From assembly GCA_963971405.1 (NCBI GenBank), contig OZ020488.1:23145089-23209088 (forward strand): a DNA stretch of 64,000 nucleotides, written 5' to 3'. Source of the stretch: Psococerastis gibbosa (lineage: Eukaryota; Arthropoda; Insecta; Psocodea; Psocidae). Below are positions 25,797 through 59,390 of this stretch, one piece after another (the stretch's first letter is position 1; every line of letters begins with the position of its first letter). The notes beneath the pieces were generated by a model. It was not told the origin of the DNA. It saw only the letters and a list, made by a program, of their open reading frames with translations, and did not search any database. A program made the translations under genes and the position numbers.

Positions 25797-26138
25797 GAGA
25801 TCGGAGAGTTAGGTAGAGCTCTTGGTCATAGAATGGTAGGCCTAATTATTTTGTAGTCTGAACCGAATGCATTCCCTGTTTCCAACCCTTTAGCTACTGT
25901 GAGTGCTATTTACATTTTGTCTCTTATTCTTGTCTCCTTATAGGGTATATGCAGTGGCGGATTTTCCAGTAGGCAACTGAGGCAAATGCCTCTATCCGCG
26001 CACGCGTACAGTACTTCAAATTTGTTTTTGGTGCATATTATGTAAAAAAAATTAAAATAATTATGTTTAACATTTTAGTTAAGTATGAGGAACCAGTAGA
26101 ATCCGGGCTGATGGGCCGTGGTCGAAGTGAAAGTGAAC

Positions 26139-26183
26139 TTCCAAACGTTTCATCAACATCTGCGGTCGACATCTTCAGTGGAA
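26139..26183 (-). ncRNA. hammerhead ribozyme-like motif, minus strand
   Basis: Inverted partner in the other arm of the same foldback. Identical core, except that the last stem II pair becomes G-U (GTTGAT in place of GTTGAC). Stem I TTCCA/TGGAA is intact. Confidence 0.45.
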
Positions 26184-26241
26184 CTGCGTAGACTTCAGTC
26201 GCTGCTGAGCCTCCGAGATACAATCTTAGAAGTCTACGCAG

Positions 26242-26286
26242 TTCCACTGAAGATGTCGACCGCAGATGTTGACGAAACGTTTGGAA
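26242..26286 (+). ncRNA. hammerhead ribozyme-like motif, + strand
   Basis: Stem I TTCCA (26242-26246) pairs fully with TGGAA (26282-26286). Core CTGAAGA (26247-26253) fits CUGANGA. Stem II GTCGAC/GTTGAC (26255-26260 with 26268-26273) has 6 pairs with a 7-base loop. GAAA is at 26274-26277, and a short stem III ACGT leads to triplet GTT with cleavage expected after 26281. As in the 4467 motif, one extra T lies between A9 and stem II. Confidence 0.5.
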
Positions 26287-26491
26287 GTTCACTTTCACTT
26301 CGACCACGGCCCATCAGCCCGGATTCTACTGGTTCCTCATTCGACTCCGGCCGTGAAAGCCTTTGCAGTTATATTATTTTAGTTAAGGTTAAGAAAGTAG
26401 GTTATTTTGATTACAAACAAAAAAAAGTGGTTTTATTAGTGAACACCCCCCCCCCTACAATATCCAAACAAAAGCCTAATCCGGCCCTGGG

Positions 26492-26696
26492 TATAGTCCA
26501 CGAAAATGAGAAAAGTATGGACAATGAATGTATTGATCCTGTGCAACACTAAAAACATTCTTTGTACCATTTTGTGTTACCTTGTTGCATTGGATGCAAG
26601 GCATAACAAAAATTGTGCAAAAAATATTTTTACAGTGTTGCACAGGATCAAAACATTCCATGTCCATACTTTCTCATCATTTTGCGTGGACTATAA
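26492..26696. mobile_element. foldback MITE with TAGTCCACG ends
   Basis: Arms TAGTCCACGAAAATGAGAAA and GATCCTGTGCAACACT on the left face AGTGTTGCACAGGATC and CATTTTGCGTGGACTA on the right. It starts five bases after the hAT element at 25952-26487. Target duplication not clear. Confidence 0.7.
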
Positions 26697-28975: not shown

Positions 28976-29844
28976 ACCTGATTGACGCAAAGTGTAGTGA
29001 CTTACTACATTACCATAGGCCTACTCGAACAGGTATAAAACGAATAACTTAAACGAAATTATTGTAAATAACGAGTATGTAAAACATATTAAAAAAATAC
29101 TTAAAAAATAAATTTTTAGCATAATTATTAAACCTCGCCGCCTTAACAAAATGAATAGGGTAGGCTACGGCAGACTGTGACCAGTCAACGATTTCGTTAT
29201 TGACATACCGTACATTTCTCGTAAAAATTGTGTAACCATAAAGGGATTTCTTTAAAGAAATATTTCAAACACCACTAGGGGATGGCATTTCACAAAGTAG
29301 ACCCCTGGGATTGCGGCTTAGTTATAATATACGTTGCTTTCGATTTCAGTTCACCAAATGAAGTAAGGTTTTCCGAGCCGAATAGGGGATAATCAAACCT
29401 TTGGTGCCTTTGCACACTTCTTTAAGTTCTCCCTTATTCTATTCCGCGCTCTTTCCCTTCGTATAGGACTTGGGAGATCAGTGAGCCGTGGTTGCGTCTA
29501 CCCAGCTTGCAAACTTGACTGACTTCACAAACATAATCATTTTATTCTTTCTTCTGCAATCATCCTGCCGTCTATAACACATACTCCCTTTTCCTGAACT
29601 TTCTTCCGATTCACTTGTTGGAATTTTCTGCGCGCTTAGTTGCAGGTTCTTAGTCAGAAGGATTTCAAATAATATTATTTATACTAGTAAAGCCTTCCCG
29701 CAATTCTATTTTGTATGGGAAACGTTACCTTACTGAATGAAAAATTATATAATTATAGTACCTTTTCTAGTAATGTTTCCACTTAAACTTCCACTTCTAC
29801 GATCTACGCCCGTAACTTTCATAAGCGAAGAAGGTTGCTACTAA
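28976..29844. other. no recognisable feature
   Basis: AT-rich; nothing seen. Confidence 0.5.
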
Positions 29845-29990
29845 GCCTCTGGGATACAATCTTAGAAGTCTACGCAGTACTCCTGCTGAAGATGTCAACC
29901 GCAGATGCAGACGAAACGTTTGTAATATAGATAGACCACGGCCCATCAGTCAGCACTGCTTCCTCATCTGACTCCAGCCAGGGGAACCTG
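29845..29990 (+). mobile_element. foldback family F, truncated right-arm copy
   Basis: Contains the right-arm series GATACAATCTTAGAAGTCTA, then CTGAAGATGT, then GACGAAACGTTTG, then CCACGGCCCATCAG. Stem I and stem II of the hammerhead-like core are degraded. The left arm is missing. Confidence 0.65.
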
Positions 29991-32326: not shown

Positions 32327-32426
32327 GCGAATGAAGTACCAGAAGAATCCGGGCAGATGAGCCCATCAGCCCGGATTCTACTGGTTCTTCATTCCACTCC
32401 GACCGTGAAAGCCTTTGCAGTTACAT
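32327..32426. mobile_element. foldback family F, internally deleted 100-bp copy
   Basis: Keeps only the tips of the inverted arms (AGAATCCGGGC...GCCCGGATTCT) and the 3' tail GTGAAAGCCTTTGCAGTTAC. An exact 10-bp duplication TGCGTTCAAA lies at 32317-32326 and 32427-32436. The hammerhead-like cores are lost, yet this copy has its own target duplication. Confidence 0.75.
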
Positions 32427-32454
32427 TGCGTTCAAATCATTCAAAGCAGAGGTT

Positions 32455-49696: not shown

Positions 49697-51486
49697 TTAA
49701 CGTATTGATTGGCGGATTGCGCAAACAGCATATAAGCCCGACAGTCCGTCATATGGTGATGTAGAGAAGGGAGGAAGGGGGGAGGGGGGGTGGAGGTGCA
49801 GTTCGGAGAGGGGTAGGCAGAAGGACACTTGAGACGAGTGGCGAGTCGTGTTTAAAACGACATTCGTGTCTTAACAAAGCGAGGCGGTGACTCTACTAAG
49901 GGTAAAACCCCCTATGTGGTGTCGATACCGTTCCCATCACCTCTATTGCCTATTTCCGTTCTTTGAAAGCCCCGTCCATCCTTTACAAAAGCCCCCAGTC
50001 GATCTTGACGACGTGTCAAAATGGGTTAGACTAACAAAAACTGGTTAATTACCAATTTACATTAGTTTTATGAAAATGAATTTGCTATACCCACCACCAG
50101 TTATTTAGAAATAATTAATATTGTATTAAACTTCTTAATCAGCCTATATGGTCGGTACTTTAAATTTTATATGATGTCGTCTTTGTCATAGATGATATCT
50201 ACAATTCTTAAAATATCTAAGGCTGTATTGTATAGGCCTATTGTATTTTATAAGATTTGGAAATAAGTCATTTAACATCATCATAATCATCATCGATCGT
50301 CTAGATGCCAACATCAGAAGAGGTTTTTGAAAAAAATGCAAAAGCAAATTCTGTTCATCGTCTTCCTAAGATAGTAGACATAAGATAGAATTAAATAAAA
50401 TGTGTGTAAAATTATCGAATGAATCCGTTTTTTGCATGAAATAATGAAAATGAGTCAAATAGGTACTCGTAAAAGTCGTAAAACGTCCACTGGAAAACGG
50501 AATTTGTAGTAACCTAAGTATAGCCCAAGATATTATTGTAGGCTAAAAATTTGTGAAACCCCTTAACCTCTTATACCAAAAAATCGTACAATAAGCAAAG
50601 GCAAACTACTGATGTAGACGGTATCTGGGCAACTCGTTGTCTAGCGCACTTTGTAGCAGTTTGCCGAACGACACTAGCGCATACCACACCAACCCTATTC
50701 AAAACCACAGTATTGCACTACACATAAACACACAAAGTGTACGCCCCAAAGGGCGTAGCGTTAAGATTAAAAAAAAAAAAAAATGTAGGCTATATAAACA
50801 AAAACTTCAGTTGTCTAGATTTTTCCTAAACATTATAACGACAGCAACCTTTCATATTCTCATTACACAAGTCGTTCTGCATGGGTTACTTACTGCTAGC
50901 TTAAAACGGAAAAATACCCGAAAAAACTAAAATTATTCACGGTGAATCGAGTCTTTGAAAATTCCTGGATGACGAGGAGCAAAAATCAAGATACTCGTAC
51001 AAACACGACGAGATCATAGGGGGATAGGTTGGGAGAGAGGAAGTGCGAAACCAGGCCTGATATCGACGCCCAACGTGTTAGGCCTACTTGTGGATGCGGC
51101 GATAAAAATTCGACCATGAAAAGGGCGGGAAAATTAAAACGTACCGACATTGAATGCTTACCCATCTTGTTGGCGCGATGGCAACTGCAAGCAAACCACA
51201 TTTTCGTACACTACAATTAGCAATAGCTCATTTCAAATCGTCATGAAAAAAGGATATTTTTAAATAATCACAGCACTCAACCCATTGCTCTGCCTTTCTA
51301 TAAGCCATAAAATAAAATAAACGTAAAATCGAGCAGGCCATCTCTTAAAAATGGAAAGATGTTACACCTACCACGATCGTATCTAAGGGCTGGTGGATCT
51401 CATTGAAGAGGGGGTTATGGAAAACAGAAAAGATTTTCGCGCCGATTAGCGGATGTGAGTTTTAAAATAATTGAGTACTTTCCATC
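49697..51486. other. no recognisable feature
   Basis: A purine-rich tract (G/A) at about 49765-49830 is the only notable composition; no coding signature. Confidence 0.5.
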
Positions 51487-52022
51487 TGAAATTGTGAGGT
51501 GAATATTTGATGGAGAAGGGGTGTAGTATGTGTATAGAGTTCTCTCGCATGTCTACTAATTCGCAAAGGGAATTTCGCCAGTTCCATATGAATTTTATTG
51601 AAATGAGTTTGAAGAGTCGTTTTTCCGTACATCAGGTGTAATCCTTGTTCCATCGGGGAAATGTAAGTTTGGCCTATTCCCCTTGGCTATAAGTCAGCCG
51701 ATCCTGGATGCAATATTTTTAAGTTCTAGTCTAGTTATCTATGCTGCTACTGAAATTGTGAGGTGAATATTTGATGGTGAAGAGGTGTGGTATGTGTATA
51801 GAGTTCTCTCGCATGTCTACTAATTTGCAAAGTGAATTTCGCCAGTTCCATATTATTTCATGAATTTTGTTGAAATGAGTTTGAAGAGCCATTTTGCCGT
51901 ACATCAGGTGTAATCCTTGTTCCATCGGGGAAATGTAAGTGTGGCCTATTCCCCTGGGCTATAAGTCAGCCGATCCTGGTTGCAATATTTTTATGTTCTA
52001 GTCTAGTTATCTATGCTGCAAC
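51487..52022 (+). repeat. tandem duplication, two units of about 264 and 272 bp
   Basis: Units 51487-51750 and 51751-52022 both start TGAAATTGTGAGGTGAATAT and end near CTAGTTATCTATGCTGC. They differ by scattered substitutions and a small insertion in unit 2 (TTATTTCA around 51855). No open frame is conserved. Function unknown. Confidence 0.9.
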
Positions 52023-52136
52023 TATAATTGAATGTAGTCTATATATGTCTATAAACGTATCTGTTTTGTTTTAGCTAAAGGTAGTGACATTGAATGATAA
52101 GATATTCCCTGAATCAAAATCAAATATAGCTCTCAC

Positions 52137-56470: not shown

Positions 56471-57070
56471 CGACAGCTTCAGCAGATTAACAATTTTCCA
56501 TGAGAAAACATCCTAGAAATGCCTGTATTATTGCACAACAAAGCAAAGTACTTCAGGTCCTCGAAAATATTCGCAATCTACCTGGAGCTGTCATCATAAC
56601 CAATCCTCAGACGCGATACACCCGCGCTAGATTAACAGTCCATCAAAAATGCCTCGACCGTCCGTCCGTCCTTCACGAACCAGTTACAGAAATGGCTGAT
56701 TTTATGTGTTCTTTCCTCTAGCAGAGCTTCTCGTCCCTGACATCTGCATTAGCATTATCTGAGTGGTAGGCTTCAGCAACTTAACAATTACATAACATGA
56801 GAAAATATTCTAGTAATGCCTGTATTATTGCACAACAAACCAAAGTACCTACTTTAGGTCCTCCAAAGTATTCGCAATCTACCTGGAGCTGTCATCATAA
56901 CCAACCCACAGACGCGTTACACCCGCGCTAGATTAAAAGTCCATCAAAAAAGCCTCGTCCATCCGTCCTTCACTAACCAATTACAGAAATGGCTAATATC
57001 TTGTGTCATTTTCTCTAGCAGAGCTTCTCGCCCCTGATATCAGCATTTACATTATCTGAGTGGTAGTGGT
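56471..57070 (+). repeat. tandem duplication, two units of about 298 bp
   Basis: Both units contain ATGCCTGTATTATTGCACAA, TCTACCTGGAGCTGTCATCA and CACCCGCGCTAGATTAA, and end with CATTATCTGAGTGGTAG. The 73-codon frame in unit 1 is broken in unit 2, so coding is unlikely. Confidence 0.85.
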
Positions 57071-58413: not shown

Positions 58414-59139
58414 TTCTTTGTTCCTCAGATTTTTCTGTTCTAATTTTCACTACAAATCCCGTATTCACAAAAAAAAAAATGAAAACCTGGCCAATAAGTT
58501 AGAAAAATACTGATTGAAACTATACGGTAGGATATAATTTAAATTTAAATTATGCTCCTAAATTCAGTGCGTATTTTGGTGTGATTTAGAATAATTTTCC
58601 ATCAAATAGCAAGACCTACGTGTAGGCTATAAAAATATTTGATTAACATGAACATTTGAGTGTATGCGACAACACTTTTTATGGTGAAACAATACTTATC
58701 ATACTGTAGTTTACGGCAGTCTTATGATCGCAACAATACATTCGTAACTTGAACATTTAAAGTTTATAAATGTAAACAGTGAGTTACGAATTTGAAAATA
58801 AATTGTGAACTCAGCACCCTGCAGCTGACAGTTGTAAAATTAAATGCTGGTCCTTCGAAATTTATTATAATTTTAAACTGTTAAATTCGAGGAAACTTCT
58901 CTTACTTCCAAATTAGGCTGCCTACCTCACACCTTTGACATTCCCTTCCCTTTCCCATGCTATAGTAAAAATTTCATATTCTAATAGGTTACCGGTATTT
59001 TAAAACGATCATGCAGGACATAATGTTCATTTACAACGAGTAGCATCGGTACATTAACACTGTCATGAGAATAATTCATTTTAGTACACATGAAAAATTC
59101 GAAATATGTATAATCTATATTGACGTAAGATGATGCAGC
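58414..59139. other. no recognisable feature
   Basis: AT-rich; nothing seen. Confidence 0.5.
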
Positions 59140-59390
59140 AGTAGAATCCGGGATGATAGGCCGTGGTCAATCTGAAAGCGTACTGCGAACGCTCCAGCTG
59201 TTGCTGCGGAGCCTCTGAGATACTCGTACAATCTTAGAAGTCTACGCAGTGCCACTGATGTCGACCCGGGATGCTAACGAAACGTTTGCGGAAGTAGCCT
59301 ACGCTTTCAAATCGACCACGGCATATCATCCCGGATTCTACTGCTTCATCATGTAACTCCGGCCGTGAAAGTATTTGTAATTATAGTGTT
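59140..59390. mobile_element. foldback family F, decayed copy upstream of OBP
   Basis: Inverted tips CAGTAGAATCCGGGATGATA and TATCATCCCGGATTCTACTG, centre ATCTTAGAAGTCTACGCAGT, and tail CCGGCCGTGAAAG. The core region has small deletions (CTGATGTCGACC...AACGAAACGTTTG), so the helices no longer form. It lies about 440 bp before the OBP start codon. Confidence 0.65.

Follow-up and report, generated by a model that had tools for sequence, protein, structure and literature searches.

Insertion ends of a Penelope-like element coincide with the predicted cut site of a minimal hammerhead motif

The window (the whole 64-kb stretch of Psococerastis gibbosa DNA that was analysed) contains a hairpin in which two pseudo-LTRs of a Penelope-like element (PLE) form a solo inverted pair with an optional 3' tail. 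Such a pair is an already known kind of object; the new part is a footprint, found in sister insertions, at the predicted cut site of a hammerhead-like motif. The best explanation, in which we place considerable confidence, is that the pair forms by the joining of two cDNAs and that some of the templates are hammerhead-cut. It further seems probable from the sequences that ribozyme-cut germ-line RNAs whose 5' end is 26282 serve as templates for two-sided target-primed reverse transcription (RT), with the insertion ends marking the scissile bond. As genomic evidence, these ends suggest in vivo cleavage by a minimal ribozyme, with the cut RNA perhaps acting as a template. No report of such a cut-site footprint was found in the literature searched, which took in only part of the key PLE work.

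A pseudo-LTR pair inserted in a host DNA transposon

The preliminary description of this DNA had recognized a foldback insertion whose two strands each carry a hammerhead-like core and which has an exact 12-bp target duplication, and both claims hold (Table 1). The insertion consists of 112-bp arms, a 32-nt loop between them and a 35-bp tail, flanked by the two copies of the duplication; the arms are complementary at 111 of 112 positions (99%), both cores were located, and the joint of this copy lies at about 26196/26197. Folded as RNA, the whole insert gives a single long hairpin (-235 kcal/mol, z = -32 versus shuffles). An Rfam match to mir-237 (28 bits, cut-off 80) was rejected, being the hairpin itself.

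Table 1. Features of the insertion, its host and its relatives in the window
Feature	Position	Strand	Remarks
Non-autonomous host DNA transposon	25952..26489	+	ends CAGTGGCGGATT / AATCCGGCCCTG; PLE copy inserted within
Left target-site duplication	26072..26083	.	ATTTTAGTTAAG; exact 12 bp
PLE insertion	26084..26375	+	inverted pseudo-LTR fragment, joint, direct pseudo-LTR, tail
Left (inverted) arm	26085..26196	-	putative cDNA from inner RT start; no tail, far end truncated
Core CTGAAGA...GAAA in inverted arm	26148..26178	-	
Loop	26197..26228	+	upstream end of direct arm, almost at transcription-start-like site
Right (direct) pseudo-LTR arm	26229..26340	+	
Minimal hammerhead-like motif	26242..26286	+	predicted cut 26281/26282
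PLE ORF N-terminus	26253..26375	+	ATG at 26253-26255; MSTADVDETFGSSLSLRPRP...
Tail, 35 bp	26341..26375	+	inner to outer RT start sites, single arm only; compare the anole PLE (PMC11167929, in part)
Right target-site duplication	26376..26387	.	ATTTTAGTTAAG; exact 12 bp
Diverged pseudo-LTR relative (77%)	29834..29979	+	
Short foldback relative	32328..32427	+	both arms truncated, tail kept
Diverged foldback relative (78%)	59130..59385	+	with tail

The copy lies within a host DNA transposon with an imperfect 8-bp flank (GGTATATG / GGTATAGT), which we take to be hAT-like from its ends and this flank. A genome search with the flanks of the insertion (40 of 689 first-look candidates scored, 42 rows) returned 40 rows at other genomic sites, each running across the joined flanks at 82-90% identity; the other two were the window's own flanks. 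Empty sites of the host transposon are thus seen directly, and the PLE insertion is certain. The earlier proposal of a retro-insertion was right.

Several other repeats were seen nearby. A MITE-like sequence (26492-26695) with inverted ends TATAGTCCACG... / ...CGTGGACTATA abuts the host transposon, and 27019-27084 matches tRNA in Rfam (39 bits) with no ARAGORN call and is perhaps a SINE head. Two-copy tandem repeats occupy 51486-52030 and 56499-57066, with units of ~272 bp and ~297 bp.

The tail, the inverted arm and an ORF N-terminus found near GIY-YIG loci confirm the suspected link to PLEs. The layout had been called a form that could not be named; published PLE anatomy, as given in the part of PMC3846280 available, does include an inverted pseudo-LTR pair with an optional tail. 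The two opposed cores are accounted for by the presence of the same pseudo-LTR twice.

A foldback query of the 409-Mb genome gave at least 81 matches (40 of 1798 candidates scored). The direct arm plus tail occurs at 100% identity over 147 bases in at least 17 places including the window, counted among the 40 scored of 1127 candidates, so the family has probably moved recently. GIY-YIG gave at least 48 matches (150 of 707 candidates scored). At one of these loci (L060), RVT_1 and GIY-YIG share one 463-aa frame, with no pseudo-LTR match there; at L062 and L072, damaged or diverged GIY-YIG frames lie near related pseudo-LTRs, and the window copy contains none. Within the stretches examined around GIY-YIG matches (32 loci, L048-L079), five related pseudo-LTRs carry the ORF N-terminus in frame from its Met, over 41 residues in L062 and L072, 30 in L076 and 25 in L074 (one stop inside) and L075. 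The plus-strand core overlaps the ATG of this ORF, and the pseudo-LTR contains the ORF start. The genome search that had been proposed found many sister copies and PLE RT/GIY-YIG genes, and the loci examined yielded no full-length element with exactly this pseudo-LTR and an intact ORF.

Across 74 copies, picked mostly through the foldback or arm queries, an inverted arm and tail were found in 59 (counting both L107 and its duplicate L112), no inverted arm was found in 11, two of which (L033 and L037) do carry one by the orientation analysis, and four were not settled. Target duplications in the 59 copies measure 12-15 bp in 48 and 6-10 bp in eight, with none in three.

Variable joints between fixed outer ends

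We compared 40 foldback copies (the window copy and 39 others), of which 39 could be oriented by their tail and one (L020) was dropped. Among the oriented copies, 38 different loop strings occur and as many different pairs of arm extents; L026 and L044 have a common loop string, and L012 and L038 common arm extents. The joint differs even between the window copy and L009, a sister 99% identical to it. Exactly one arm reaches 30-38 nt upstream of 26229 in 34 of the 39 copies, both arms do so in none, and neither does in L010, L017, L019, L029 and L042. Longer copies contain CCAAT and a TATAAA that starts 28 nt ahead of CTCACAGTC, a position that makes the shared arm end look like a pol II start.

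Since the foldback query favoured full arms, a second set was drawn from the arm-plus-tail query (20 of its 40 places). Here the inverted arm ranges from full length down to 13-14 nt (L085, L098), some copies have none within the ~450 bases upstream that were examined, and in L087 and L099 the inverted piece continues past the edge of the examined stretch. The outer end of the arm without the tail is far less variable, lying at reference 348-351 (26339-26342) in 51 of 59 copies.

With many copies of one layout, two of which share their arm extents, the hairpin might be a mobile foldback family that transposes as a unit. The variable joints, which differ even between near-identical sisters, and an inverted arm that is full, very short or not found led us to reject this extremely improbable reading. 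The distinct joints between fixed outer ends indicate instead that hairpins are made afresh by the head-to-head meeting of two cDNAs; two fixed ends, a variable joint and a stagger of 12-14 bp fit two target-primed cDNAs.

A single cDNA could also snap back and prime itself, as has been proposed, on an antisense template, for rotifer PLEs (PMC3846280, in part). The inverted joints and a few copies with short palindromic or repeated joints agree with such self-priming. Snap-back should, however, copy the tail and the target end into the second arm, and the 51 arms that end at the inner site do so without a tail; the overlap at the joint is moreover only 0-2 nt in 33 of 39 copies. We therefore regard self-priming as unlikely and favour two priming events.

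Two further observations concern these copies. Distances between arms are 0.054 within copies versus 0.073 between copies, and the own partner is nearest or tied in 12 of 39, so there is no sign that arms are homogenised and no strong same-RNA signal. In L086, L093, L095 and L096 the joints repeat short pieces of the RNA 5' end (such as GTCGCTG and GACTGTG), as if the RT had gone back over the end of the template several times ahead of the joining step.

The available part of the study of Adineta vaga Penelope families describes inverted pseudo-LTR pairs with a ~31-bp tail on one member, short duplications, the first ORF codons within the pseudo-LTR and palindromes at inverted joints (PMC3846280). 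The psocid copies resemble them in their inverted pairs, single tail, ORF start in the pseudo-LTR, short duplications and joint palindromes, and differ in that duplications are 12-14 bp here versus 8-10 bp there, where self-priming was the proposed route. The word hammerhead does not occur in the main text of that paper, as far as it was available.

A minimal hammerhead-like motif over the ORF start

The hammerhead core consists of C3U4G5A6N7G8A9 ... G12A13A14 with an NUH cut site (here U17), and in the classical form stem II directly follows A9 and a stem III is present. The plus-strand core reads UUCCA / CUGAAGA / U / GUCGAC-loop-GUUGAC / GAA / ACGU / U / UGGAA, with a stem I of 5 bp, a stem II of 6 bp and one extra U between A9 and stem II. 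The core letters, both stems and the extra U are thus as first described. The short stem III is not: ACGU is simply a palindrome that lacks a loop, from which a hairpin in cis would be impossible. The classical layout is therefore departed from by the extra U and by the ACGU palindrome in place of stem III, and what is present is the set of minimal PLE-type core letters, an NUH site and stems I and II. The same motif, likewise predicted for the opposite strand, does occur there, with GUUGAU for GUUGAC, which turns a G-C pair of stem II into G-U. As to the further expectation that transcripts of either strand would contain such a core, when the transcript is the whole insert both cores would be buried in the predicted duplex.

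Rfam returned no hammerhead at the gathering score in the 64-kb window, nor at E <= 10 on segments of 551 and 65 bases. The isolated 51-nt motif forms stems I and II in its minimum-free-energy (MFE) structure, with a stability that does not stand out from shuffles (z -0.22). When the whole 112-nt arm is folded, its MFE structure lacks the hammerhead stems. The examined loci gave 97 ungapped cores (gapped ones were dropped), of which 79 keep all tested core letters, 75 stem I and 87 stem II. The helices do not covary: the 97 cores are almost uniform, and diverged copies have broken stems. The preliminary description had named a missing model match and missing covariation among the results that would refute a hammerhead. 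We give both little weight, because most copies are probably dead and young ones uniform, so that helix decay tells little, and because helix III is absent from PLE hammerheads as these are described (PMC6155905, PMC7761336, in the parts available), so that Rfam models may well miss them. Sequence, fold and conservation of the motif are, by themselves, no proof of ribozyme activity.

The minimal type I hammerheads that these sources describe in PLEs and Terminons likewise lack helix III and lie in pseudo-LTRs, and the additional U that follows A9, ahead of stem II, may set the present motif apart from them. The closest parallel is PAc, a Penelope/Poseidon-type element of Anolis carolinensis whose ribozyme, according to the available part of PMC11167929, lies over the ORF start and cuts 26 nt after the start codon, and whose two RT start sites bound a tail of 30-40 bp. 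In the psocid element the ribozyme motif also overlaps the ORF start, the predicted cut falls 26 nt past the ATG codon, the outer ends lie 35 nt apart with the tail between the RT starts, and the target is, as for PAc, AT-rich in the window copy. Unlike PAc, the copies studied here are solo inverted pairs.

A conserved coding sequence with its start codon could in principle give rise to the hammerhead likeness as a by-product, with no ribozyme involved. The segment does encode the ORF N-terminus, and neither covariation nor an Rfam match supports the motif. Against this, some of the core residues precede the ATG, the tested core letters are intact in most cores, cDNA ends coincide with the predicted cut (see below), and the geometry is that of the anole PLE ribozyme, which cleaves in vitro with protein (PMC11167929, in part). 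A mere coding by-product is thus quite improbable.

Animal retrozymes, too, are short repeats that are non-autonomous and carry type I hammerhead motifs, and PLEs have been named as their candidate movers; the psocid copies differ from them in being non-tandem, in having no canonical helix III and in carrying an ORF N-terminus (PMC7229834, in part). We rejected a retrozyme reading because the copies are dispersed inverted pairs with target duplications, with no tandem 150-450 bp repeats and no stem III.

Insertion ends at the predicted cut site

The predicted cut after 26281, taken from the preliminary description, finds support in genomic insertion ends. An exact-stop pattern for arms that begin at 26282, the base right after this cut, matched 14 times genome-wide, and its reversed control matched nowhere. 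All 13 sites of these matches were examined, and dropping L112 as a repeat of L107 left 13 arms in 12 loci. (L112, on the small contig C47, duplicates the C14 locus L107 and is probably an unplaced assembly duplicate.) A tail and a target duplication are present in 11 of the 12 loci, the duplication measuring 12-15 bp in ten and 6 bp in L108; L101 has no tail, and the duplication routine gave no result there.

In ten of the 12 loci any partner arm is at most 1 nt longer. The partner arm starts at 26281 in L105, L108 and L110, and the two exceptions, L102 and L104, contain another piece that reaches the start site. In four of 11 loci (L102, L105, L108 and L110), the arm that the pattern had not selected comes to within 1 nt of the cut, and in L100 the pattern selected both arms. 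Another locus, L071, was located independently through a nearby GIY-YIG match: both of its arms end at 26281, and its joint contains a further TGGAAGTTC start. As an arm carries one extra T in L105, L108, L110 and L071, the end is fixed only within 1 nt. The bases next to the cut end differ from locus to locus, except that L101, L103 and L109 have one joint in common and L108 and L110 another, so that these loci are not fully independent as joints. L102 has three parts, an inverted arm from 26282, a direct piece 26196-26331 and then 26282-26375 with the tail, and looks like the product of a jump between templates, out of a cut RNA and into the middle of an uncut one.

The same form of pattern was applied to control positions, giving ten matches at 26274, four at 26278, three at 26283 and one each at 26286 and 26290, all 19 of which were examined. 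At 26274, L117 and L120 proved to be full arms with a 1-nt deletion rather than truncations, which leaves up to eight real cases. The 12 loci at the cut are more than the four farther controls give on average (3.25, from 8, 3, 1 and 1; p = 1.5e-4) and do not differ clearly from 26274 (12 versus 8; p = 0.11), so the cut does not stand out by the raw number of truncations.

The partner arm does distinguish the cut site. At 26274, 26278, 26286 and 26290 (16 matches), all nine resolvable truncated arms are joined to a longer partner starting at 26193-26230; left out were L115, L118 and L124 (not settled), L123 and L125 (internal deletion) and the untruncated L117 and L120. A longer partner is thus lacking in 10 of 12 loci at 26282 versus 0 of 9 resolvable controls (Fisher p = 2e-4, or 0.006 when L115, L118 and L124 are counted against the cut reading), in a test framed after the first loci had been seen. 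At the adjacent position 26283, L129 has no longer partner, L131 has one and L130 shows an odd joint. By sequence, the control truncations would so be second arms that stopped early, whereas 26282 behaves as the 5' end of a template RNA, like the start site. A cryptic start site at 26282 is possible, though the window sequence has no TATA 30 nt upstream.

The main rival keeps the same PLE insertion and has the ends at 26282 arise with no cleavage, from RT stalling at the folded ribozyme or from a sequence hotspot. The frequent ends at 26274 and the formation of stems I and II by the short motif lend it some support. An RT arriving from the 3' side would, however, be expected to halt before stem I, near 26287, and the nearby positions 26286 and 26290 gave only single matches. 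The letters at the 26282 end also vary among loci, the two shared joints apart, and a stalled arm should have a longer partner, as in the resolvable controls, which most 26282 loci lack. On this evidence stalling or a hotspot seems rather unlikely, and cleavage of some templates is the preferred reading.

The following sequence of events would account for the insertions; its priming, joining and cut-template steps are inferred from insertion ends. A TATA-box promoter in the pseudo-LTR would give an RNA starting about 38 nt upstream of 26229, a start site deduced from TATAAA and the shared cDNA end. PLE protein (RT and GIY-YIG), acting in trans, would cut both target strands 12-14 bp apart; the stagger is read from the duplications, and cutting of both strands is taken from the published anole PLE. 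The target ends would then prime RT, at the outer site 26375 on one side, giving the tail, and at the inner site 26340 on the other. Usually one cDNA would reach the RNA 5' end and the other would stop early, and their head-to-head joining would create a new joint nearly every time. Some template RNAs would first be hammerhead-cut at 26281/26282, and their cDNAs would end exactly there.

For PAc, the available part of the published work reports no RNA-seq ends at the cut site and a ribozyme dispensable for in vitro insertion (PMC11167929); the psocid genome, in contrast, does show ends at the cut site, in its insertions. The interpretation with which this analysis began is, overall, partly supported. 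For PLE inverted repeats more generally, variable joints together with two fixed outer ends favour two priming events over self-priming. Any genome that has such elements keeps a permanent, readable record in its insertion ends, so the question can be tested from sequence. If the proposed reading is true, the genome records both cleavage and the joining of two cDNAs in vivo, and the sister insertions that end exactly at the predicted cut suggest that the motif works in the animal.
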